From Tenericutes bacterium MZ-XQ (GTDB lineage Bacteria; Bacillota_I; Bacilli_A; Acholeplasmatales; Acholeplasmataceae), in contig CP017950.1 of assembly GCA_002838205.1 (NCBI GenBank), positions 750,858 to 814,857 on the forward strand: a stretch of DNA of 64,000 nt, in the 5' to 3' direction. The position numbers and the translations under genes were made by a program. Shown here piece by piece: positions 17,358 through 40,390 of this stretch. Position 1 is the first letter of the stretch; every line of letters begins with the position of its first letter. The notes below the pieces were generated by a model. The model worked only from the letters and a program-made list of their open reading frames with translations, was not told where the DNA came from and did no database searches.

Positions 17358-18506
17358 TTATAATAATTTCTTGAATATTTCAATCTTATCTAAACTTTCC
17401 CATGAAAAGTCTTCGATGTTTCTTCCGAAATGGCCATATGCTGCGGTTTTTTTGTATATAGGTCTGTTCAGTTTTAAAGTCTTTATGATCCCTTTTGGAG
17501 TTAAATCAAAATGATTTAGAACTGCTTCATAGATTTTATCTAAGTCAACTTTCTCCGTGTCAAATGTATTAATCGCAACGCTCACTGGTTCTGATACACC
17601 AATCGCATATGCTAGTTGAATTTCACATTCGGTTGCAACACCACTAGCGACAATATTTTTAGCAATATATCTTGCCATGTATGCTGCACTTCTATCCACC
17701 TTGGTTGCATCTTTTCCTGAGAAAGCTCCACCACCATGTCTAGCATATCCACCATAAGTATCAACAATGATTTTTCTTCCTGTTAAACCAGCATCCCCGT
17801 GGGGTCCACCAATGATAAATCTTCCCGTTGGATTAATCTTATAAATGGTTTTAGATGTATCATAATCTTTTAAAACAGGTTTTATAACATGTTCTAACAT
17901 GGCTTTATGTAGCTCTTCTTGAGTCCAAAACTCATCATGTTGAGTTGATAATACTACAGTATGAATATAATCGATTTGATGGTTTTTGTCATATGCTACA
18001 GTGACTTGAGTTTTTCCATCTGGACGAAGACCTTCAACAATATTTGTTTTTCTAACATAACTTAGTCGTTCTGCAAGTCTATGAGCAAGATATATAGGTA
18101 ATGGTAAAAATGTGTCTGTGTCACTATTCGCATAGCCAAACATTAAACCTTGATCACCAGCACCTAAAGATTTGTTTTCATTCTTATTAACACCTAAAGC
18201 AATATCCGCTGATTGTTCTTTGATTTTTAAATCAATTTCGACAGTATCAACACTATATCCATATGCTTCTTTTGTATATCCAACATCCAAAATAGCTTGT
18301 TTTACGATTTGCTTATAATCTACTTTAGCTTTGGTTGTAATCTCACCAAATAACAAACAATAATGTGTAGTTACTGCTGTTTCTATCGCTACTCTTGATT
18401 CTGGATCTTGTTCTAAACATGCATCTAAAATAGAATCCGATATATAATCACTCAATTTATCTGGATGCCCTTCTGTTACTGATTCACTGCTAAATAATTT
18501 GTACAT
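17358..18506 (-). CDS. metK: S-adenosylmethionine synthetase
   Basis: Makes S-adenosylmethionine from ATP and methionine, the methyl donor for tRNA, rRNA and DNA methylation. The 382-residue protein begins [18 protein letters not shown] with the metal/ATP residues. It has [12 protein letters not shown] (about 113-124) and the phosphate-binding [19 protein letters not shown], ending with the usual KTAAYGHFG segment. GAGGAG lies 7 nt upstream of the ATG. Its transcript should be controlled by the S-box riboswitch at 20217-20309, but an IS110 element now separates the two by about 1.6 kb. A leader hairpin lies next to the ribosome site. Confidence 0.98.
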
Positions 18507-18524
18507 ACATACACTCCTCGTATA

Positions 18525-18563
18525 ATATGTAGTGTAGATTTAGGTTGATACCTTACTACATAT
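18525..18563 (-). promoter_or_regulatory. Hairpin in metK leader next to ribosome site
   Basis: Perfect 9-bp arms ATATGTAGT and ACTACATAT with a 21-nt loop holding a nested AGGT/ACCT pair. On the mRNA it ends 6 nt before GAGGAG, the metK ribosome site. It does not match a SAM class known to me. It may be part of the original leader or simply stabilise the 5' end; no clear promoter is visible between it and the IS. Confidence 0.45.
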
Positions 18564-18592
18564 CATTATTTATAAGTTTGAAGTCCTAGTGT

Positions 18593-18790
18593 TATAATTA
18601 AATCAAGATGTAACCAGAAGAATCTGCTTCCACTCCTTGCACATCATGGTGCTATTTAAGCGTGCAAACCTGCTTGATTGGCTTATCTGCTAACCGGTTG
18701 TTGTTACCCGTTAGATTTCACTCAACTTCTATGTCTAACGGTGGTTTCTTATTGGCGAGGCTGCAGTTGTCTTTCAAGGCTAGGACTTCT
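18593..18790 (+). ncRNA. Candidate IS110 bridge RNA in transposase leader
   Basis: The 5' non-coding part of the element starts with a TATAAT box (18593-18598). It can then fold as a 5' stem-loop GAAG/CTTC (617-630 of the 18 kb block), a second stem TTGCAC/GTGCAA (18637-18642 with 18662-18667, 19-nt loop) and a third stem CCGTTAG/CTAACGG (18708-18714 with 18735-18741, 20-nt loop). IS110 elements encode a bridge RNA upstream of the transposase with a target-binding and a donor-binding loop. The two loops fit that plan, but I could not match loop sequence to the element ends. Confidence 0.45.
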
Positions 18791-18814
18791 CTTATATCTA
18801 TTTTCCCTTGAAAG
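18771..18814 (+). repeat. Inverted repeat before transposase ribosome site
   Basis: Perfect 9-bp arms CTTTCAAGG (18771-18779) and CCTTGAAAG (18806-18814). The right arm abuts the GAAGGTG ribosome site of the transposase. It may hold down transposase translation or mark the 3' end of the leader RNA. Confidence 0.5.
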
Positions 18815-18825
18815 AAGGTGTTCTT

Positions 18826-20052
18826 TTGAATCATACTTTATGTGTTGGTATTGACGTTGCTAAACTGTCCAATCACGTTTATGCACTTAACTTTAATCGT
18901 GATAAACTTTTATCTGTCAATATTCCTAATACCCAAGATGGTGCGAACTTAATTGAAACGCATATTTTAAAACTTCTTGATAAACATCATCTCTCTAAAG
19001 TCATTGTCATCTTAGAGTCAACTGGTGTTTACTCCGGTCATCTTGCGACCTACTTATCAGCTTCTAAGTTTTTGAGTGTTTTCGATATCAAAGTTTATCT
19101 CATCAATCCTAAAATTTCTAAAAATTATAGAAAAAGTTTTGCTGATATGGATAAAACTGATCCTAAAGATGCTTACATCTTAGCTGATATTGCTAGAGTT
19201 GGAAGAACCGATGAGTTAACTCCCTTTAAAGGTGGTCAAAGACTTGCTTTAGAAAGACTCACAAGGCATAGACTTCATATTGCTGAAAAACTATCCAATG
19301 AGAAGGTTTATGCCCTTAATAACGTGTTTATAAAGTTTTCTAACTTTGAAACTATATTTTCTAATAACTTTGGATCAACTGCTGTTGATCTCTTATTAGA
19401 TTATAAAACCATTGATGATATTATCGATTCATCTTTAGAAGATTTATCTGACTTTGTTGCTAAATCAAGTAAAAATCGCTTTGATAATTCACTTGATATC
19501 GCTGCTAAGATCCAAAAAGCTGCTAGAGATTCTTATCGTCTTGATAAAGTTTCTTATGATCCTATTAATACAGCTCTCGCCTCATCCATAAATGTCATTA
19601 AATGTTATGAACATGAAATGAAAGATATTGATAAAGCCATTTTGCGACAAGTCGCTGGGTTTAATCATGATCACTATCAAATCTTAACGTCTATACCTGG
19701 TATTGGTAAAGTTTATGCAGCCGGTATCTTAGCTGAGATTGTTGATATTAGTCAGTTTGAATCCAATGATGCACTTGCTAAATATGCAGGTATTACCTGG
19801 CGTAAAAATCAATCCGGGAAATTCACCGCTGATGAGACTTACATGACTAAAACTGGAAATAAATATTTGCGCTACTTTTTAATCCAAGCAGCCAACATGG
19901 CTAGAATTCATATACCTGAGTATCGTGATTTTTATCATAAGAAATATGATGAAGTCACGACTCATCAACACAAACGTGCACTCGCCTTAACTGCTAGAAA
20001 ACTTATTCGTCTTATCTATGGTTTGTTGAGTACCAATAGACTTTATAAGTAA
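18826..20052 (+). CDS. IS110-family transposase (DEDD recombinase)
   Basis: A 408-residue RNA-guided recombinase of the IS110 family. The RuvC-like N-terminal domain shows Asp10 in CVGIDVAK, Glu64 in ILESTGVY, and Asp112 and Asp115 in KTDPKDAY. The C-terminal Transposase_20 domain shows TSIPGIGKVYAAGILAEI, then KYAGITWRKNQSG with the candidate nucleophile Ser330. The TTG at 18826 has GAAGGTG about six bases upstream; a TTG at 18808 lies within the inverted repeat and is less likely. The gene is intact with no frameshift, so the element may be active. It is inserted in antisense orientation in the metK leader. Confidence 0.95.
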   Translation: MNHTLCVGIDVAKLSNHVYALNFNRDKLLSVNIPNTQDGANLIETHILKLLDKHHLSKVIVILESTGVYSGHLATYLSASKFLSVFDIKVYLINPKISKNYRKSFADMDKTDPKDAYILADIARVGRTDELTPFKGGQRLALERLTRHRLHIAEKLSNEKVYALNNVFIKFSNFETIFSNNFGSTAVDLLLDYKTIDDIIDSSLEDLSDFVAKSSKNRFDNSLDIAAKIQKAARDSYRLDKVSYDPINTALASSINVIKCYEHEMKDIDKAILRQVAGFNHDHYQILTSIPGIGKVYAAGILAEIVDISQFESNDALAKYAGITWRKNQSGKFTADETYMTKTGNKYLRYFLIQAANMARIHIPEYRDFYHKKYDEVTTHQHKRALALTARKLIRLIYGLLSTNRLYK

Positions 20053-20087
20053 AACTTAATTAGATTAATTCTTATAACTTTTACTTT

Positions 20088-20117
20088 TTTAAGCATGTCT
20101 TTAAATGATGCTTTTTA
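20088..20117 (+). terminator. Terminator after transposase gene
   Basis: Stem AAGCAT/ATGCTT (20091-20096 and 20108-20113) with an 11-nt loop followed by a short T run, 38 nt after the transposase stop. It has no T tract on the minus strand, so it should not block antisense read-through toward metK. Confidence 0.6.
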
Positions 20118-20179
20118 TTAACTTTATACTCGTTTTTTATATTTTTAGTGCTTGACATCTTTACCGGTTGCTTCTTTTA

Positions 20180-20209
20180 AGAAAAACCGCCTTCCATAAG
20201 GAAAGCGGT
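20180..20209 (-). terminator. S-box riboswitch terminator
   Basis: On the minus strand the arms ACCGCTTTCC and GGAAGGCGGT (one mismatch) with loop TTAT are followed by TTTTTCTT. It lies directly after the SAM riboswitch. Its 5' arm plus loop (TTCCTTAT, 20196-20203) can alternatively pair with ATAAGGAA (20214-20221), the 3' strand of aptamer helix P1. That is the expected terminator/antiterminator exchange. Confidence 0.9.
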
Positions 20210-20216
20210 CTTCTTC

Positions 20217-20309
20217 CTTATTGTTGGGATTTACCCCTTGTGAAAAGCACCTAAATTAAGTAGGTTGCTGCTATGTCAACAGTCACTGGCCTCGATAGCT
20301 CTGAATAAG
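20217..20309 (-). ncRNA. SAM-I (S-box) riboswitch aptamer
   Basis: A 93-nt S-box aptamer read on the minus strand. P1 is CTTATT/AATAAG (20304-20309 with 20217-20222). P2 GCTAT/ATAGC carries a kink-turn-like GA pair, with upper stem CAGTGACTG. The junction GCAGCAACC leads into P3 ACCTA/TAGGT with the conserved GGTGCT. P4 is GGGG...CCC before the closing AATAAG. These are the hallmark conserved boxes of SAM-I riboswitches, which stop transcription when SAM is plentiful. The natural target is metK, the next minus-strand gene, now separated from it by the IS110 insertion. Confidence 0.92.
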
Positions 20310-20334
20310 TTTTATTTAATTTTTATTCTATATC

Positions 20335-20376: not shown

Positions 20377-21693
20377 CTAAAAATTATTATACATTTCTGA
20401 AAACTCATCATGAAACTTCAAAAATCTTTCCTTTAAATCATAATCAAAATAATTACCTAATTCACTTTGAAATTGCTTTAAAACAATACTATGTGCCATC
20501 GGTCTTTTGTATGATCTATGTGATCTCATGGTGATATATAAATCACTTAATAAAATCACTTGTGATTCTATTTCTGGTTGAATCATAAGCATTTCTTTTA
20601 AGAATTTTTCGTTTGCGGTATCTTCAATATGAGCTCTTGCAATATCTTCACATTTTTGTGCTAACTGAATGCGTTTAGCTATTCTTGAACCTAATTCTGT
20701 TTGATCTTTTAACATATCATAGGTTTTTTCGTCATATGAACTAATATCATTTAAAAGATGTTTGATTTCTTGATATTGTAAATGGACCATTGCATAGTCA
20801 TTTAAATTATTGATTTGATCTTGACTCATCCCATAATAATCAGCCAACTTTTGACTCATTTGTTGAACTTGATATGCATGTCTCTTATCCATTAAGGTAT
20901 AAGATGATGAAAACACAACACTAAATAAATCACCAACAATATGAGAGAAATCCGTTTGAACTTGTCTTCTTTTAATCAACTCTTTTTTTCTTTCTTCTTG
21001 CATATATTGTCCCATTGAAACAATTGCATATAAAACAAAATAGAAAAGAATAAAGAGTAAAGTTCTTAGTAATATATCACCAAATTCAGGTAATCTAATA
21101 AAATTCGGTAAAAATTCCATAAATGATTGTCCACCGACTAACCCATGAAAATTATATGTCCAAATTAAATGAATCACTGTAAGCAATGCTAATAAACCTT
21201 GGAAACTACTACTCAAAAGCTTCTTTTCTTGATATAAAGAAATAACGACGACTGCATAGTACATTAAAATGTATGCTCCGGTTTCAAAATATTCCAGTGT
21301 GTATAATCTTGCATATATTAATACTGATGAGAAAAAGATATAAAATGCAGCAACATACATCGCAACACTCTGCTTAGTTTTATCTTCTTGATCTAGATAA
21401 ATTAATTTTTTTAACAGTTTATTGATGACATAAGTAATTGGAAACGCCATCACAGTAATGACCCAATCAGCAACCTGTGCCTCACTAGAAAACGATAAAA
21501 CTAATAAAATCAATGTGTACATAATATTTGAAACAAAGACAATATTTTTTATAACGACGTTTCTTCTAAATAAAACAGCGACATCATTTGTAATGTCAAC
21601 GCCTTGCTCAAAGCCAAAAAACTTAGCAAATATGTCTTTGCCAAGTGTTTTTAAATCCCAAAATTTTCTTTTCTTGTTTTGTTTATGATTCAC
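20377..21693 (-). CDS. Membrane protein with degenerate HD-GYP-like domain
   Basis: A 438-residue protein with six or so membrane helices (about 48-235, for example IVFVSNIMYTLILLVLSF and LLFILFYFVLYAIVSM). A cytosolic C-terminal part has the outline of an HD-GYP domain: HAYQVQQMSQKLADYYGMS (first His helix) and later LLSDLYITMRSHRSYKRPM and GNYFDYDLKERFLKFH, matching the HD-GYP consensus tail. The HD dyad itself is replaced (AMVHLQYQ) and the GYP loop is missing. It is therefore unlikely to hydrolyse cyclic-di-GMP and may be a sensor or scaffold. It is the last gene of priA-fmt-pgpA and starts at GTG with AGGACT upstream. Its function is unknown to me. Confidence 0.75.
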   Translation of the reverse strand: MNHKQNKKRKFWDLKTLGKDIFAKFFGFEQGVDITNDVAVLFRRNVVIKNIVFVSNIMYTLILLVLSFSSEAQVADWVITVMAFPITYVINKLLKKLIYLDQEDKTKQSVAMYVAAFYIFFSSVLIYARLYTLEYFETGAYILMYYAVVVISLYQEKKLLSSSFQGLLALLTVIHLIWTYNFHGLVGGQSFMEFLPNFIRLPEFGDILLRTLLFILFYFVLYAIVSMGQYMQEERKKELIKRRQVQTDFSHIVGDLFSVVFSSSYTLMDKRHAYQVQQMSQKLADYYGMSQDQINNLNDYAMVHLQYQEIKHLLNDISSYDEKTYDMLKDQTELGSRIAKRIQLAQKCEDIARAHIEDTANEKFLKEMLMIQPEIESQVILLSDLYITMRSHRSYKRPMAHSIVLKQFQSELGNYFDYDLKERFLKFHDEFSEMYNNF

Positions 21694-21710: not shown

Positions 21711-22277
21711 TTATAAATCAAAAATGCTAAATCTTTTGACATCTACATTTTCATGTGCTAAATCTTCATTCATGACTTGTGCGACTCTTGTTGATGCTGC
21801 TGCAGCAATTGCACCGACGATATCATCTAAGAATGTGTGACATATACCATCTTCTTTACCAGCATCATTTAAACGTTTAACAATACCATGTTTATTAACA
21901 TCAATATCACCAAAATTGGTTTGTCCAATCGTTCCATACAAACCAGAAACATCTAAGCCAAGTGTTTCATCAACTCCAAATAAACCTAAATCTTCATAAA
22001 TAATATCTTGAATAGGTCCTTGGAATAAACCTTCTTCAGCTAAACGATCAATTTCAGCTGCTAGTTGCACATGATGAAATACATCTCTTAATGATAAAAT
22101 CTTTTCAACTGATTCTATACAAATTGCACGGCTAACTTCATCAGAGTACTTTGATTGTTGCATATAAGAGATTTCTGCAATTGCTTCAATCGTTACACCT
22201 CTTTTTAACAACATCTTTTTGTTTAAATCAAACATTTCTTGTCTTGTAAAAAGTAGTTTTTTCTTTTCATTTTTCAT
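21711..22277 (-). CDS. Phosphatidylglycerophosphatase A-like protein (YutG family)
   Basis: A 188-residue PgpA/YutG family protein. In Bacillus this family dephosphorylates phosphatidylglycerol-phosphate to phosphatidylglycerol. Diagnostic blocks are YEDLGLFGVDETLGLDVSGL and YGTIGQTNFGDIDV, then CHTFLDDIVGAIAAAASTRVA with the metal-binding HTFLDD. The N-terminal 70 residues form a helical extension, also seen in YutG. Unlike E. coli PgpA, no membrane helices are obvious. The ATG overlaps the fmt stop by 4 nt (ATGA), so translation is coupled. Confidence 0.87.
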   Translation of the reverse strand: MKNEKKKLLFTRQEMFDLNKKMLLKRGVTIEAIAEISYMQQSKYSDEVSRAICIESVEKILSLRDVFHHVQLAAEIDRLAEEGLFQGPIQDIIYEDLGLFGVDETLGLDVSGLYGTIGQTNFGDIDVNKHGIVKRLNDAGKEDGICHTFLDDIVGAIAAAASTRVAQVMNEDLAHENVDVKRFSIFDL

Positions 22278-23209
22278 GATTCTTCTCCTCCATTGAATGT
22301 GTCATTCACATCCATGATGTTTTGTCCATTGAGAAAATCTTTAGTTGCCATTATTTTTTTTCCTGGGACTTGAATCTGTTCAATTTCAACCGCTTTATCA
22401 AGGGTTTTAACAATGAGTTTCTTCTTAATGTTCAAAATTGTTCCAGGGCTTTTATCTTCATTTCCTATTATATCACTATTTCTTACTTTATAGATTTTGA
22501 TTTTAACACCATTGATAAATGCATGTGCTCCAGGTTCAGGGGTTAACCCTTTAACACGATTGATAATCTTTTCAGTCGATTGATTAAAAGATAGGAATTC
22601 ATCACTATAAGTCAATGTTGGAGAAAATGTCACAAGTGCTTCATCTTGTGCTTCTCGATAAATGATGCCTTGACAAATATCTTCTAAAACTTCTTTTAAA
22701 AGTCTAGTTCCTAAAGATGACAGTCTTTGAGTTAAACTTAGCGTATCATCCTCGTCATGGATGTTAATTGCTTCTTGTTTGATAATATCGCCGCTATCCA
22801 TTTTAAATGCCATATACATAATTGTAACACCAGTTTGCTTATCACCATTGAAAAGTGCATATTGAATTGGTGCGCCGCCACGATATTTGGGCAGCAGGGA
22901 TCCATGGACATTAATTGCTTTTACCTCATCAAGAAGAGCTTTTGGTAATATTTGACCATAAGCAGCAGTAATCACAAAATCTGGTTTAAGATCAACAATT
23001 TTTTGATATTCTGTCTTAATATTTTTGGGTTGAAAGACTTCAATACCATGTTTTAAGGCCACTTCTTTTACAAGGGGTGGAGTTAATACTTTTTTTCTAC
23101 CTATGAATTTATCTGGTTGTGTAACAACCAAACATACATCGTGTTCTTTGATTAACATTTCTAAGACTTCGACTGCAAATAAAGGCGTTCCCATAAATAC
23201 AATTTTCAT
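22274..23209 (-). CDS. fmt: Methionyl-tRNA formyltransferase
   Basis: Transfers a formyl group to initiator Met-tRNA. The 311-residue protein has the Rossmann start MKIVFMGTPLFAVEVLE and the active site NVHGSLLPKYRGGAPIQYAL (catalytic Asn, His; Asp in MDSGD). A C-terminal OB-like domain binds tRNA (LTPEPGAHAFINGVKIKIYK). It follows priA by 10 nt, matching the Firmicutes priA-(def)-fmt order. The usual def gene is absent here. Confidence 0.97.
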   Translation of the reverse strand: MKIVFMGTPLFAVEVLEMLIKEHDVCLVVTQPDKFIGRKKVLTPPLVKEVALKHGIEVFQPKNIKTEYQKIVDLKPDFVITAAYGQILPKALLDEVKAINVHGSLLPKYRGGAPIQYALFNGDKQTGVTIMYMAFKMDSGDIIKQEAINIHDEDDTLSLTQRLSSLGTRLLKEVLEDICQGIIYREAQDEALVTFSPTLTYSDEFLSFNQSTEKIINRVKGLTPEPGAHAFINGVKIKIYKVRNSDIIGNEDKSPGTILNIKKKLIVKTLDKAVEIEQIQVPGKKIMATKDFLNGQNIMDVNDTFNGGEES

Positions 23210-23219
23210 TTTTATTCAC

Positions 23220-25526
23220 CTACATCATATCTAAATTTGGATAATACTTCATATATATATTTTGAGACTTTAGATCGTTCATCATGTTTTTAATATCTAA
23301 AGCATCTAAAGTTTTATACTTTATGGTAACCACAAATCTAAAACGGTCTTTTATTTTTTTGACGAGTGCTTGAGATGGACCGAGTACTAAAACATCATCT
23401 AAAAGATTTAGTTTTTTCTTTAACTGAAAGGCAACTTGATATGTTTTTAAATACTCTCTTCCCTCAATTAAAAATTGAGAAACATGCATGAAAGGTTCAT
23501 ATCGTAATAGTTTTCGTTCATATAAGGCTTCTTTATAAAAAGCATCGTAATCTTTTAAAACACTTTGAATCGCATAATGATCCAGTTGATACCCTTGGAT
23601 AATCACATCTCCAGGCATATGTCTTCCAGATCTTCCAGAAATTTGTGATAAGAGCATATACGTTTGTTCGCTTGCTGTATAAGAAGGTACTTTTAAAGAT
23701 AAATCAGCCATTAAAACCCCAACAAGTGTTACTTTAGGGAAATCTAAACCTTTAGCAATCATTTGTGTTCCCAATAAGATATCAGCATCTTCATGAAGAA
23801 ATGAATGCCAAAGTTTTTCATGTGCTCCTTTAGTTGTTGTCACATTTCTATCCATGCGCATAATTCTGGCAGTAGGGAATGTTTTTTTAAGCTGTTGCTC
23901 GACATATTCAATGCCAACACCAACTTCTTTAACCGTAGGTTGATGACATGCTTCACATGTTTTCAAAAAAGGTTTTTCATATCCACAATAATGACATTTA
24001 AGTACTTCTTTATCTTTATAGTATGTAAGAGATATATCACAATCAGGACATTTTGGCACATCTCCACAATGTCTACACAATACAAATGGTGCATATCCTT
24101 TTCGATTGAATAGAATCATGGTCTGTTCTTTTTTAGATAACCTGTTATGAATTGCTTCTTTTAGTTCATTTGAGAAGATTGAAGTATTTTTCTGTTTGAG
24201 TTCAGATTTCATATCTACTAACTTAATACTAGGTTGTTTTAAGTTAAAAGGTCTATGTTTAAGTTCTAAGTAGTGATACATACCATTTTTCGCATGATAC
24301 ATACTTTCAATTGATGGAGTTGCAGATCCTAAAACTAACGGTATATGATGATATTTCGCTCTTAATGACGCGATCTGTCTAGCATCATAAATCACGCCTT
24401 CTTTTTGAATGTATGATGGATCATGCTCTTCATCAATCATGATGATACCTAAATCATTCATTGGCATAAAAACACCACTTCTAGTAGCAATAACAACATC
24501 AATTTCATTGTTTAAGATCATTTGATATTGATCAAATCTCTCACCCTTTGATAAAGCACTATGGTATATCGCAACTCGATTAAATCTTGATTTGATGCGT
24601 TTCGCCATCGGCGATACCAAAGTGATTTCAGGCACAAGTATGAGACACTTTTTATGATTGATTATAACTTTTTCCATGACATCCAAGTAAACTTCAGTTT
24701 TACCTGAGCCTGTCACACCATGAAGTAAGAAAGTTTGATTGCTGTCAAGAGCATCTTGAATGGACTGACTTGCTATTTTTTGTTCAGAAGTTAAGGAAAC
24801 GATTTTATCTTTTAAATCAAAAACGTGCTTGATTTCTCTTTTTTCAGTGATCGTTGTTTGTCTGAGCACATCATGTTTCTTAAGTGTTTGAATGTGCCCT
24901 GTTGTAAATCCTAAAGTCTCTAAATCTTTCTTTGTATAAGTTTTATCCTTTTCTAAACTAGGATATTGATCAACTCTTTGATATTGATGATTTTCATGAT
25001 ATAAATATGCGACTACTTTTTTCTCTTTGCTTTTTTGAGCATATATATTTTTGATATCTACAACCTGTTTCTCACGTAATCTTCTGAGCTTTGGCAGCAT
25101 ATCATAGTCACTCTTTTTTAAGTGCCAAATACCTTTATCATTAAAATATATTTTCATTGAATCAGGTACTAAATTTTTATCCTTAATGACGATTTCTTTA
25201 TCATAATCCATACCAAGTTCACTAGGTATAACACACTCAAAAACTTCACTATAAAGGGAATCAGTGCTTTTTAATAGATCATTAATAATCATAAATAATT
25301 CGTCATTTACTGTAGGCGTAAGATCGAGAAGATGCATGATATCCTTAGTCTCTTCAGATGAATCTTCCATCATCTCAATAACATAACCCATTCTTGTCTG
25401 CGCACCAAAAGGCACGATCACTCTCATGCCTACTTCTAAATCATTAATCATATCATCTGGTATATGATAATCAAATGCTTGATTGACTTGTTCATGCTTA
25501 ATATCAACGATGACTTTTGCGTACAC
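23220..25526 (-). CDS. priA: Primosomal protein N' (helicase PriA)
   Basis: A 768-residue 3'-5' helicase that reloads the replisome at stalled forks. The N-terminal DNA-binding domain is followed by Walker A HGVTGSGKTEVYLD (about 270-283), DEEHDPSYIQKEG, and eight zinc-binding cysteines in CRHCGDVPKCPDC and CHYCGYEKPFLKTCEACH. Helicase motifs ILLGTQMIAKGLDFP and QISGRSGR complete the fold. Start is GTG with a weak ribosome site. It lies just downstream of the rbfA terminator and heads the priA-fmt-pgpA-HD-GYP unit. Confidence 0.97.
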   Translation of the reverse strand: MYAKVIVDIKHEQVNQAFDYHIPDDMINDLEVGMRVIVPFGAQTRMGYVIEMMEDSSEETKDIMHLLDLTPTVNDELFMIINDLLKSTDSLYSEVFECVIPSELGMDYDKEIVIKDKNLVPDSMKIYFNDKGIWHLKKSDYDMLPKLRRLREKQVVDIKNIYAQKSKEKKVVAYLYHENHQYQRVDQYPSLEKDKTYTKKDLETLGFTTGHIQTLKKHDVLRQTTITEKREIKHVFDLKDKIVSLTSEQKIASQSIQDALDSNQTFLLHGVTGSGKTEVYLDVMEKVIINHKKCLILVPEITLVSPMAKRIKSRFNRVAIYHSALSKGERFDQYQMILNNEIDVVIATRSGVFMPMNDLGIIMIDEEHDPSYIQKEGVIYDARQIASLRAKYHHIPLVLGSATPSIESMYHAKNGMYHYLELKHRPFNLKQPSIKLVDMKSELKQKNTSIFSNELKEAIHNRLSKKEQTMILFNRKGYAPFVLCRHCGDVPKCPDCDISLTYYKDKEVLKCHYCGYEKPFLKTCEACHQPTVKEVGVGIEYVEQQLKKTFPTARIMRMDRNVTTTKGAHEKLWHSFLHEDADILLGTQMIAKGLDFPKVTLVGVLMADLSLKVPSYTASEQTYMLLSQISGRSGRHMPGDVIIQGYQLDHYAIQSVLKDYDAFYKEALYERKLLRYEPFMHVSQFLIEGREYLKTYQVAFQLKKKLNLLDDVLVLGPSQALVKKIKDRFRFVVTIKYKTLDALDIKNMMNDLKSQNIYMKYYPNLDMM

Positions 25527-36981: not shown

Positions 36982-37744
36982 GTTTCTTAAAAAAGTCGTA
37001 TAATTGATCCTCATGTATATGTGGCGCAATATAATCGGCTTTTTCTTTTAATTCTTGGAATCTTGTATTATCCATCACAATTCCAACATCAGCAAGTTCA
37101 ATCATATCTACATCATTAGCTCCATCACCTATACAGATGAGTCGATCAATTCGATCAACTTCTAAACATTTTTTAATGCCCAGTGCTTTGTTTATATGTG
37201 GATAAGTGAAATCCGCACCACCAGCATGCCAAGGAAAAACTCTGAATTTTGGCATAAGTTTAGCAGCTTTAAAAATCTCTTCTTCTTTTGCTGCAAACAT
37301 CCAAAGCTGATAGACTTTATGCTCTTCATAAAACTTTTCGTTAATACTAGGTCTTATGTCCCTTAATAATTTCATGCCATCTAAAAAACTTTGATCCATA
37401 TAATTAACAGCTTCATCATCAATACCAATCATGCCAATGTTGATATCTTGATCCTTTGTCATTTTCAAGACATCGATAATATCTTTTTGATCAATAGGTA
37501 AATCATAAATGACTTCATTATTTTTTAATACATAAGCACCATTTAGTAGAACTTTATATGTAAAAAATGGTAAGACATCATTGATGATTTCAAGCTTACG
37601 AAGGCCTCTACCAGTTGCCAAGCCTAAAACAACGTCCTCTTGCAAGCTTAAAAGGCTTAAAAGTTTTTTTGTCTGTTCTGGAATTTTATGATCTTTATGA
37701 CAATATATCGTATTGTCAACATCAAAGAAAATTGCAGTTTTCAT
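36968..37744 (-). CDS. Cof-type HAD-IIB family phosphatase
   Basis: A 258-residue HAD hydrolase of the Cof type, which dephosphorylate sugar phosphates, nucleotides or flavin precursors. Motif I FFDVDNTIY (nucleophile Asp), motif II LATGRG, motif III Lys, and motif IV CIGDGANDVDMI are present, with a cap domain between. ATG 37744 has GAGGTG six bases upstream; an earlier TTG frame start overlaps that site. It converges on and overlaps coaD. Substrate unknown. Confidence 0.9.
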   Translation of the reverse strand: MKTAIFFDVDNTIYCHKDHKIPEQTKKLLSLLSLQEDVVLGLATGRGLRKLEIINDVLPFFTYKVLLNGAYVLKNNEVIYDLPIDQKDIIDVLKMTKDQDINIGMIGIDDEAVNYMDQSFLDGMKLLRDIRPSINEKFYEEHKVYQLWMFAAKEEEIFKAAKLMPKFRVFPWHAGGADFTYPHINKALGIKKCLEVDRIDRLICIGDGANDVDMIELADVGIVMDNTRFQELKEKADYIAPHIHEDQLYDFFKKLNLV

Positions 37745-37779
37745 CTTACACCTCAAAATTATTATAGCATATATTGTAT

Positions 37780-37808
37780 TTGACTATCATTTTTAACGAT
37801 TTTATTAT
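37780..37808 (+). promoter_or_regulatory. RNase J promoter
   Basis: -35 TTGACT (37780-37785), 17-nt spacer, -10 TATTAT (37803-37808), about 40 nt before the chosen start codon. Confidence 0.65.
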
Positions 37809-37848: not shown

Positions 37849-39537
37849 ATGAAAAACCCATTATTAAACCCCGGGGAAATCGGCATTTTTGCTTTAGGTG
37901 GGCTAGGCGAAGTCGGCAAAAATATGTATATCTATGAAATAGAAGATCAAATCTTCATTGTCGATTCAGGCATTTTATTTCCAGATGAACACTTATTAGG
38001 TATTGACTACGTCATTCAAGATTACACATATCTTATTGAAAATCAAGAGCGCATTGTTGGGCTCTTTATTACCCATGGTCATGAAGATCATATTGGAAGT
38101 ATCCCCTATCTATTGCGTCAAGTTGAAATTCCCAAAATCTACGCTTCAGGTATAGCTGTAGACTTAATTGAATATAAATTTATGGAACACAAAGATATTA
38201 AAGCACCTCATATTGAAGAGTATAAGAGTCATTATAAATATAACTTTAAAAATGTTGAAGTTAGTTTTATTAGAATGACCCATTCAATCCCTGATATGTT
38301 TGGTATCGTATTTAAGACATCTATCGGTACATTATTTCATACCGGTGATTTTAAAATTGATTTTACACCTGTCGGACCACCAACTGAGTTTGATAAACTA
38401 GCTAAAATCGGTAGTGAAGGCGTACTATGCATGTGTTCGGATTCTACCAATGCAGAGCGTGATGAACTCATTATATCGGATAGTAAAGTTGGAAAATCAA
38501 TTCATGAACTTTTCACGAGAATGACAGGTAGAATTATTATTGCAACATTTGCTTCCAACATGTATCGTATCCAACAAATCATCGAAGCTGCTGTACTTAA
38601 CAAAAGAAAAGTTGCAGTGTTCGGAAGATCCATGGAACGTGCTATAGAAGCTGGTATGCAAACTGGTTATATTAAAGCGCCAAAAGATACACTCATTACT
38701 GGTGATCAAGTCAATAGATATAAACCAGAACAAATTTGCTTATTAGTAACCGGTTCTCAAGGTGAGCCACTTGCTGCACTGAGTAGAATCGCAAATGGTA
38801 CTCACAGGCAAGTACAAGCCATGGCAGGTGATACTGTGATTTTCTCTTCTTCTCCTATTCCAGGAAATCAAGAAGGTGTCAATAGAACAATCAATCGCTT
38901 GTTTAGATTAGATGTTAATGTCATCACTCATGGACCACTAGCAGATACTCATACTTCTGGACACGGTGCTCAAAATGACTTAAAAATGGTATTAAGTTTA
39001 GTTAAACCAAAACTATTTATTCCAGTACACGGCGAACATAGAATGCTTAAAGAACATAAACAACTCGCCATTGATTGTGGTGTTCAACCTAACAACATTT
39101 TAGTTATGGATAATGGTGATGTTGCTGCAGTTTCTAAAGATGGTATTCGCTATGCTGGAAAAGTGACTTCAGGTGAAATCTATATTGATGGAACAGGTAT
39201 TGGAGATATTGGCAGTGCTGTTATTAAAGAACGTAAGTTACTAAGTGAGGAAGGACTATTTTCAGTTGTTCTTTCTGTAGATTCACAAAATAAAAAGTTA
39301 ATTAATGATCCAACCGTTATTTCAAGAGGTTTCATCTACATGAAAGGTAATGAAGAGCTTACCAGACAATTAGCGAATGAAGCTAAAAAAGTGTGTCAAC
39401 AAGAATTATCCGCAAAACTATATAGTGACCAACACATCAAACAAGCAGTAATTGATCATTTAAGCGATAAAATATTTGAGATCACTCAAAGACGTCCTTT
39501 AATTATTCCAATTATTATCGATTTAAAAAATGCGTAA
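37849..39537 (+). CDS. rnjA: Ribonuclease J
   Basis: A 562-residue metallo-beta-lactamase/beta-CASP RNase with 5'-3' exo and endo activity, central to mRNA decay and rRNA processing where RNase E is absent. Metal motif HGHEDHIGS (about 76-84) and the further ligands in HTGDFKID and VHGEHRML are present. Residues ITHGPLADTHTSGHG form beta-CASP motif B. Start ATG 37849 has GGAGG seven bases before; an ATG six codons earlier lies in front of that site. A second RNase J gene, if any, is outside the window. Confidence 0.95.
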   Translation: MKNPLLNPGEIGIFALGGLGEVGKNMYIYEIEDQIFIVDSGILFPDEHLLGIDYVIQDYTYLIENQERIVGLFITHGHEDHIGSIPYLLRQVEIPKIYASGIAVDLIEYKFMEHKDIKAPHIEEYKSHYKYNFKNVEVSFIRMTHSIPDMFGIVFKTSIGTLFHTGDFKIDFTPVGPPTEFDKLAKIGSEGVLCMCSDSTNAERDELIISDSKVGKSIHELFTRMTGRIIIATFASNMYRIQQIIEAAVLNKRKVAVFGRSMERAIEAGMQTGYIKAPKDTLITGDQVNRYKPEQICLLVTGSQGEPLAALSRIANGTHRQVQAMAGDTVIFSSSPIPGNQEGVNRTINRLFRLDVNVITHGPLADTHTSGHGAQNDLKMVLSLVKPKLFIPVHGEHRMLKEHKQLAIDCGVQPNNILVMDNGDVAAVSKDGIRYAGKVTSGEIYIDGTGIGDIGSAVIKERKLLSEEGLFSVVLSVDSQNKKLINDPTVISRGFIYMKGNEELTRQLANEAKKVCQQELSAKLYSDQHIKQAVIDHLSDKIFEITQRRPLIIPIIIDLKNA

Positions 39538-39559
39538 AAAAAAGTCCTTAGGACTTTTT
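39535..39559. terminator. Bidirectional terminator after RNase J
   Basis: AAAAAAGTCC/GGACTTTTTT with a TTA loop, flanked by runs of A and T. It serves RNase J on plus and the exonuclease gene on minus. Confidence 0.9.
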
Positions 39560-40390
39560 TTATTGCATATGGAGCATAAATGCATCAAATACATATTTAG
39601 TGACTAAAGCATCATCATTTGCATCATGATGTTGAATACCATCAATATCAAAATATGTTTTATATGCTTTAAATAAACCTAAATCATCTTTTAAATTATA
39701 ATAATCCTTATGTAACTTGAGTAAGTCAATAAAATCAGTATCTTTAGTTAATATTTTTTTATCGTGTAATTTATAAGAATCATTTAAAGCAGTGATGTCA
39801 TTCTTACCCCAAACAACGAATTTAGGTTGATATTTTTCAATAATCCTGTTTAAATCTTCGTAGAATTTTTCATAGTGAATGGCATCTTCATAAAACTGTA
39901 GCTCATCTAGTTTTAAGAATTTTTTTGTTCTTTTTGATAGATTTGTTGATGGTGCTGGCAAAACATAATATCCATTTTGCTCAATGATTTCTCCTTGTGC
40001 CTCTGATAAAACATATCCAACTTGAATGATTTCTGGTGTAAACGAAGTTGAAGTATATCCTGGCATGGTCATTTCAAAATCAATAAATAAATAATGTTTA
40101 TATTGTTTTAAAACATTTTGCATATCTTTTCTAAGTTGAAATAGATCATAATGTACACGATGTGGTTCTAGTGAAATAATGCGATTAAAATGAGCAACCT
40201 GAAAATATAGTTTCCCATGAATCTTTTTCCGTTTTGTGGCAATTTCAAAGTCAACCAAAACACCTTTTCTTAAATAATCGAAAAATGTTTTTGCTAATCT
40301 ATTTGATAAGTAAAACCCTATTTTTCTACCTTCAATAATTAAATAGAATATTTTTAAATCACGATTGATGTCGTATATAATTTTTGTCAT
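39560..40390 (-). CDS. DEDDh 3'-5' exonuclease domain protein
   Basis: A 276-residue protein with an RNase T/DnaQ-like exonuclease fold in residues about 98-270. Exo I is FIDFEMTMPG (Asp, Glu), Exo II VVWGKNDITALN, Exo III HDANDDALVTKYVF with the DEDDh His and Asp. The closest type I know is KapD/sporulation-inhibitor-like exonucleases. The first 95 residues (DINRDLKIFYLIIEGRKIGFYLS) are not a domain I recognise. It overlaps uvrC by 4 nt, so the two are co-translated, hinting at a repair or nucleic-acid processing role. Confidence 0.82.
   Translation of the reverse strand: MTKIIYDINRDLKIFYLIIEGRKIGFYLSNRLAKTFFDYLRKGVLVDFEIATKRKKIHGKLYFQVAHFNRIISLEPHRVHYDLFQLRKDMQNVLKQYKHYLFIDFEMTMPGYTSTSFTPEIIQVGYVLSEAQGEIIEQNGYYVLPAPSTNLSKRTKKFLKLDELQFYEDAIHYEKFYEDLNRIIEKYQPKFVVWGKNDITALNDSYKLHDKKILTKDTDFIDLLKLHKDYYNLKDDLGLFKAYKTYFDIDGIQHHDANDDALVTKYVFDAFMLHMQ

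Follow-up and report, generated by a model that had tools for sequence, protein, structure and literature searches.

PgpH is a membrane-bound protein of the HD superfamily, and the PgpH/7TMR-HD c-di-AMP phosphodiesterases carry 7TMR-HD membrane and extracellular domains. Membrane proteins with a dead HD-GYP domain, or with one that works as a receptor, are already known. HdgB of Streptomyces is described as having six membrane helices and a degenerate HD-GYP domain that lacks key GYP residues and is predicted to be inactive; its locus tag adjoins that of an intact HD-GYP gene, and 79 of 93 strains were found to have it (PMC6205966). DvhD of Desulfovibrio vulgaris is reported as a membrane protein with a periplasmic dCache and a cytoplasmic PAS domain of its own, in which the HD-GYP domain binds c-di-GMP and acts as a switch (PMC13090378). 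The family described here adds to these the loss of both catalytic motifs in every sampled member, core-gene status, a fixed priA-fmt-pgpA/metK neighbourhood and survival in genomes without detected intact c-di-GMP enzymes. No description of it was found in the open-access literature searched, outside which most subscription journals lie.

The gene is located in a 64,000-nucleotide stretch of the Tenericutes bacterium MZ-XQ genome (the window; Table 1). Its product carries six hydrophobic segments N-terminal to the cytosolic part (centres near residues 54-63, 85, 116-124, 142-145, 167-177 and 210-224), which appear as helices in the structure model of the full protein and agree with the large membrane domain noted in the first-pass annotation. 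Like HdgB, the protein combines six membrane helices with an HD-GYP domain devoid of the key GYP residues, but the membrane parts can be likened by helix number alone, the HD aspartate is missing as well, and the gene stands beside metK and priA-fmt-pgpA rather than beside an intact HD-GYP gene. DvhD is among the best structural matches, yet a Pfam search extending to E=10 shows neither dCache nor PAS in the window protein.

Table 1. Features of the locus (positions are those of the window).
Feature	Position	Strand	Remark
CDS, six-TM protein with degenerate HD-GYP-like domain	20377..21693	(-)	438 aa, GTG start
Residues 22-60, cytosolic N-terminal motif running into TM1	21514..21630	(-)	one of the most conserved stretches
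Membrane domain with six predicted TM helices, about residues 45-228	21010..21561	(-)	low model confidence, pLDDT ~50
Connecting helix, residues 228-262	20908..21012	(-)	
Degenerate HD-GYP-like domain, residues 263-438	20380..20907	(-)	
pgpA (PF04608)	21711..22277	(-)	17 nt upstream of the gene, same strand
fmt, methionyl-tRNA formyltransferase	22274..23209	(-)	
priA	23220..25526	(-)	
metK, conserved downstream neighbour	17358..18506	(-)	
SAM-I (S-box) riboswitch, between gene and metK	20215..20311	(-)	41.7 bits, gathering 44.4
IS110-family insertion, between riboswitch and metK	18519..20170	(+)	1652 bases; transposase ORF 18808-20052, PF01548/PF02371

The C-terminal domain is homologous to HD-GYP phosphodiesterases. 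The window protein has no Pfam match up to E=10; an NCBIfam model of NosR-type c-di-GMP phosphodiesterases matches residues 245-433 weakly (E=8.5e-5, far below the model cut-off), and a phmmer search of the PDB finds the HD-GYP structure 4r8z (E=8.3e-4). The profile built from 48 relatives aligns with the active HD-GYP phosphodiesterase PmGH (4mcw) over the whole domain (profile positions 265-428, E=2e-7), and E-values of 5.5e-10 and 1.4e-7 come from hhalign comparisons with two intact HD-GYP proteins of the membrane. Pfam HD_5 (PF13487) is matched by 8 of the 48 order members (A1) at E≤0.01, and HDOD does not occur among the Pfam matches of the 48 at that threshold. Two members, L134 and L142, exceed the HD_5 cut-off and could be counted as c-di-GMP phosphodiesterases, a hazard for annotation that extends to genomes seemingly without such an enzyme (G143).

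Fold comparison points the same way. The full-length model has a mean pLDDT of 63, with membrane blocks near 50 and a good C-terminal domain; modelled in isolation (residues 240-438), this domain reaches a pLDDT of 84.6 and a pTM of 0.81. Its best Foldseek matches are all HD-GYP structures (4mcw, 1.4e-4; 4r8z, 2.4e-4; DvhD, 2.5e-3), and HD-GYP entries also fill the top four places in VIA-align (4mcw, at Z 11.6, 4r8z and DvhD 9rbz/9rc0; the other Z scores are 10.6, 10.5 and 9.5), with rmsd values of 4.6, 5.1, 4.0 and 5.0 over 142, 143, 132 and 130 residues. A cGAMP phosphodiesterase (Z 7.7) follows, then PgpH (4s1b/4s1c; Z 7.5, rmsd 5.5, 151 residues, 8% identity), and the one HDOD chain lies lower (Z 5.8); no HDOD or PgpH row comes near those of HD-GYP. 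The window protein further differs from PgpH in having neither a Pfam match to any PgpH domain nor the HD dyad. As VIA-align Z scores below about 13 are weak for helical bundles, the case for homology leans more on sequence than on fold. The first-pass annotation had called the product an HD-GYP-like membrane protein and named a fold comparison as a check: the profile match to 4mcw bears out the description, and the structural matches speak for HD ancestry rather than against it. The membrane part of the full-length model is of too low quality for interpretation; the rows obtained with it (prenyl synthases, coiled coils) were weak and were put down to common helical arrangements.

The active site was examined in an alignment of 69 members (49 from the order, 12 from families f7, f16, f23 and f24, and 8 from f12) with four intact HD-GYP controls, three of them from the same genome. 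The 69 rows consist of the 48 order members (A1) and 21 of 27 strong matches, from which near-duplicates (L136, L143, L154, L155) and sequences cut at contig ends (L148, L161) were left out. The GYP motif (HHExxDGxGYP) and the HD dyad (HDxGK) are each present in 4/4 controls and in 0/69 members. That both had been lost was the reading of the first-pass annotation; it stands for GYP and for the intact dyad, and needs amending for the dyad histidine, which is retained in 59 members and in the window protein (H304), where only the aspartate is replaced (L305). Among the 69 members, 11 do have the letters HD at another place in their cytosolic part, for example as FHDEF in the window protein, away from the dyad position.

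Seven alignable metal ligands of PmGH were scored, with E185 left out (numbering from PMC4159591). Histidine occupies the H189 position in 32 of the 69 members, the H221 (dyad) position in the 59 already mentioned, the H276 position in 42 and the H277 position in two; D222 and H250 have no equivalent in any member, and D305 corresponds to aspartate in 41 and glutamate in 24. Controls thus keep 7/7 ligands and members between none and five. In spite of its whole-domain match to PmGH in sequence and fold, the window protein has nothing equivalent to D222, H250 or H277 and no GYP motif, and retains four positions (H272, H304, H355 and D384), so that a partial metal site may persist there. For PmGH, alanine at H189, H221, D222, H250, H276 or H277 is reported to leave almost no activity, but alanine substitutions within GYP or at K317 cost little (PMC4159591). 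Loss of GYP is therefore no proof of death by itself, and it is from the metal ligands that loss of catalysis can be strongly inferred, in keeping with the catalytically dead domain proposed in the first-pass annotation. Judged by its sequences, the family appears to be an ancient lineage of pseudoenzymes, with motif loss class-wide and not the product of recent decay. A recent pseudogene or a sequencing error is ruled out by the open frame in nearly all relatives, the low dN/dS and the absence of the motifs from 69/69 members; the exceptions to the open frame are a split gene in L031/L068 and L032/L069 and a copy with three in-frame TGA codons in a metagenome-assembled genome (MAG; G318). In the split genes (L031:4989-6304 and L032:1401-2692, also L068 and L069), which come from Mycoplasmatota strain zrk7 and one MAG, two overlapping frames encode the membrane part and the HD part.

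Other residues are held almost without exception. D33, N45, Q108, Y141, Q155, R235, E238, R341, Y386, R390 and F424 are found in all 69 members, Y395, R242, N56 and L41 in 68, R43 of the N-terminal motif in 67, R353 in 66, and K347 and K396 in 65 each. The R390 column holds threonine in the controls, and K396 aligns with PmGH K317, for which a role in substrate binding is described (PMC4159591). The near-invariant residues of the HD domain could be structural. Purifying selection acts on both halves of the protein: dN/dS is 0.014-0.064 for the membrane half (6/6 close pairs) and 0.007-0.142 for the HD half (4/6 close pairs, the other two being saturated).

The gene is a core gene of its lineage and is missing from few of the order members sampled. 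In a set of 61 relatives, 57 genomes match at E≤1e-3, two of them (G014 and G045) weakly only, and no match was found in G011, G016, G024 and G033. Three of these four (G011, G024 and G033) belong to one genus with genomes of 0.7-0.9 Mb; the fourth, G016 (86% complete), has six EAL matches and neither a match to the c-di-AMP synthase (DAC) domain nor the dead GGDEF protein described below. Named relatives are Acholeplasmataceae together with records labelled Tenericutes, Mycoplasmatota or Bacillota. At class level the threshold of E≤1e-20 is reached by 82/296 genomes, which belong to families f1, f3 and f5 of the order and f7, f12, f16, f23 and f24 outside it, and the 61-genome set adds the order families f2 and f4. 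In a draw of 392 genomes from the phylum, which need not include other classes, 55 match at E≤1e-15 and all are listed as the same class or closer, with three matches covering the HD part only (G069, G175 and the second row of G006). The conservation survey in Acholeplasmatales suggested by the first-pass annotation therefore finds the gene near-universal in the sampled order and extends it to five more families of the class. Some species of this lineage have no cell wall and small genomes, and here a product that resembles a broken signalling enzyme is conserved far beyond a relic.

A domain whose active site is lost everywhere sampled, and which is nevertheless under strong selection, is more probably a switch or a docking part than an enzyme. 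The explanation we favour, with moderate confidence, is a membrane-bound HD-GYP pseudoenzyme that works as a non-catalytic receptor or scaffold, its dead domain binding either some anionic ligand or another protein, with a helix coupling it to the membrane part. A nucleotide signal, as suggested in the first-pass annotation, is a hypothetical ligand here. The six membrane helices would act as a sensor or an anchor. The former catalytic cleft would have been re-lined with the near-invariant R341, K347, R353, Y386, R390, Y395 and K396, provided that these residues face one cleft, and may bind its ligand or partner without hydrolysis, while the connecting helix (residues 228-262) would relay changes between the dead domain and the membrane part. 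Several members from f7, f16, f23 and f24 (L134, L141, L142, L145, L146 and L147) carry an N-terminal extension with a short LDDFFKK-like motif, possibly for docking.

A purely structural membrane protein is possible, if clearly less probable. Here the HD-like domain would dock PgpA or another membrane or division component, no small molecule would be involved, and the membrane part would be the main worker. Conservation of the membrane half indeed equals or exceeds that of the HD half (among the 49 order members, mean pairwise identity is 0.47 against 0.40, and 0.65 in the N-terminal motif), and the conserved neighbours are housekeeping and not signalling genes. However, near-invariant charged and tyrosine residues in the former catalytic region suggest more than a passive plug. 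Nor does the conserved context say much for the pseudoenzyme reading, as synteny with housekeeping genes can mirror shared ancestry and carry little information on mechanism. The tie to priA-fmt-pgpA recorded in the first-pass annotation is confirmed and now includes metK: the order priA-fmt-pgpA-gene-metK recurs throughout the order and in f16, f23 and f24. In part of f2 and f3 pgpA was not recognised and the gene follows fmt, and in f12 the upstream genes are others, yet metK lies downstream in 8/8 loci, directly or within about 3.3 kb.

Among 91 loci with at least 600 bases downstream, metK starts no further than 300 bases away in 78 and within 3 kb in 85. This count excludes duplicate loci (L033-L046, L050, L051, L053, L054 and L057), fragments (L027 and L029) and non-members (L086, L094, L159 and L160), and includes some genomes twice (at least L024/L048, L031/L068 and L032/L069). 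A shared operon with metK was considered as a functional clue and is weakened by the SAM-I riboswitch, which separates the gene from metK in the window and in 6/12 scanned loci, a seventh match (L081) lying elsewhere; its score exceeds gathering in several relatives and falls below it in the window. In those loci metK is under its own control. In 12 loci of other families of the class the gap between gene and metK is at most 38 bases, which makes one operon possible there. A terminator-like hairpin accompanies the riboswitch in the window (about 20186-20209). With the IS110 element placed between riboswitch and hairpin on one side and the metK start on the other, the riboswitch may no longer be coupled to metK in this genome.

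A receptor of the DvhD type, in which c-di-GMP is bound in the cleft without hydrolysis and drives the membrane part, is very doubtful. The host genome would be suited to it, with 17 GGDEF and 5 EAL matches and three intact HD-GYP proteins, the fold matches c-di-GMP-bound DvhD, and K396 occupies the place of PmGH K317. On the other hand, the GYP loop, whose tyrosine is described as hydrogen-bonding c-di-GMP in PmGH (PMC4159591), is gone in 69/69 members, and the gene is kept in genomes where none of the messenger's enzymes was detected intact. Fourteen GGDEF/EAL proteins are reported for A. laidlawii (PMC2408644), and mollicutes other than A. laidlawii are described as using c-di-AMP instead (PMC11535214). 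Twelve genomes with little or no GGDEF signal were picked, two of them small-genome relatives from the 61-genome set. None of the 12 has an HD_5 match outside the gene's own family; nine have one GGDEF match each, none with a GGDEF-type motif in a pattern search; and ten have no EAL match, while the single weak match in each of the other two (G010 and G023) shows neither of the patterns searched, EAL and DDFG. The gene itself is missing from G268. The remaining 11, eight of them at least 90% complete, retain it, and no intact enzyme of the GGDEF, EAL or HD-GYP kind was detected in them; the copy has in-frame TGA codons in G318 and is cut short in G084. In all eight of these 11 that are in the alignment, R341, Y386, R390, Y395 and F424 are unchanged. 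Persistence of the gene in these 11 genomes makes c-di-GMP unlikely as its general ligand.

If the pseudoenzyme reading is true, a domain of c-di-GMP signalling can survive the loss of this messenger and acquire a basic role in the membrane. A c-di-AMP synthase (DAC) domain is present in 10 of the 11 genomes and was not found in G120; c-di-AMP is a candidate ligand. Two small genomes of the genus that lacks the gene (G011, G024 and G033) were searched and have the c-di-AMP synthase. L207 and L208 encode a large protein (736 aa within the locus, from an ORF of about 1000 aa) whose EAL-like part shows neither the EAL nor the DDFG pattern. It may be a third dead c-di-GMP protein of small genomes, and an EAL match in the MZ-XQ genome (G000:C1:1333747-1334385) is perhaps of the same kind.

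A re-tooled hydrolase, with H272, H304, H355 and D384 holding one metal ion and the new arginine and tyrosine set supporting another reaction, is the least probable explanation, for although the window protein has all four ligand positions, 28/69 members have four or five and HD-fold chemistries are described as diverse (PMC8177086), 8/69 members have lost all seven positions and 11 retain a single one, yet these share the other invariants.

The low-GGDEF genomes also brought a second dead membrane protein to light. Eight of their nine GGDEF matches belong to one family that combines a membrane part, one or more PAS domains and a GGDEF domain without its motif. It is found in 53/61 relatives (E≤1e-20) as a single copy, to which one genome adds a further, weak match. 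In the MZ-XQ genome (G000:C1, genome coordinates; L215:3074-5618) the dead GGDEF gene (38037-39608) stands directly downstream of cdaA, whose DAC domain is at 37445-37795, and in the 20 neighbourhoods read it is mostly directly downstream of cdaA or one large gene apart; no cdaA was seen beside it in f12 (L230 and L232) or in G120 (L224). The layout resembles that of GdpP, a phosphodiesterase for c-di-AMP that is described as having a membrane part, a PAS domain and a degenerate GGDEF domain (PMC5508000), but no DHH domain was found in the PAS-GGDEF protein, which is possibly an unrecognised partner of CdaA.

That the two dead proteins form one c-di-AMP-linked membrane control system, in which c-di-GMP folds were recycled for another messenger and kept after c-di-GMP was lost, is a doubtful proposition. 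Of the 296 class genomes, 70 have both genes, 12 the HD-GYP-like gene only, 3 the dead GGDEF gene only and 211 neither (E≤1e-20 and E≤1e-40, respectively). The overlap of the two distributions largely follows the tree, and the genomes with one gene only leave an obligate partnership unsupported. A Fisher test on these counts takes no account of common descent and is given no weight. Docking of the RpfG type between the two can be ruled out, as this contact between HD-GYP and GGDEF domains is reported to require the GYP motif (PMC3749722, PMC4159591), which the HD-GYP-like protein lacks. Between cdaA and the dead GGDEF gene, L219 (3678-5765) and L225 (2418-4763), from f16/f24, encode a protein of 695-781 aa without a Pfam match. 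The cdaA/dead GGDEF pair is often followed by genes for 5-FTHF cyclo-ligase, ispD/ispF and yutD.
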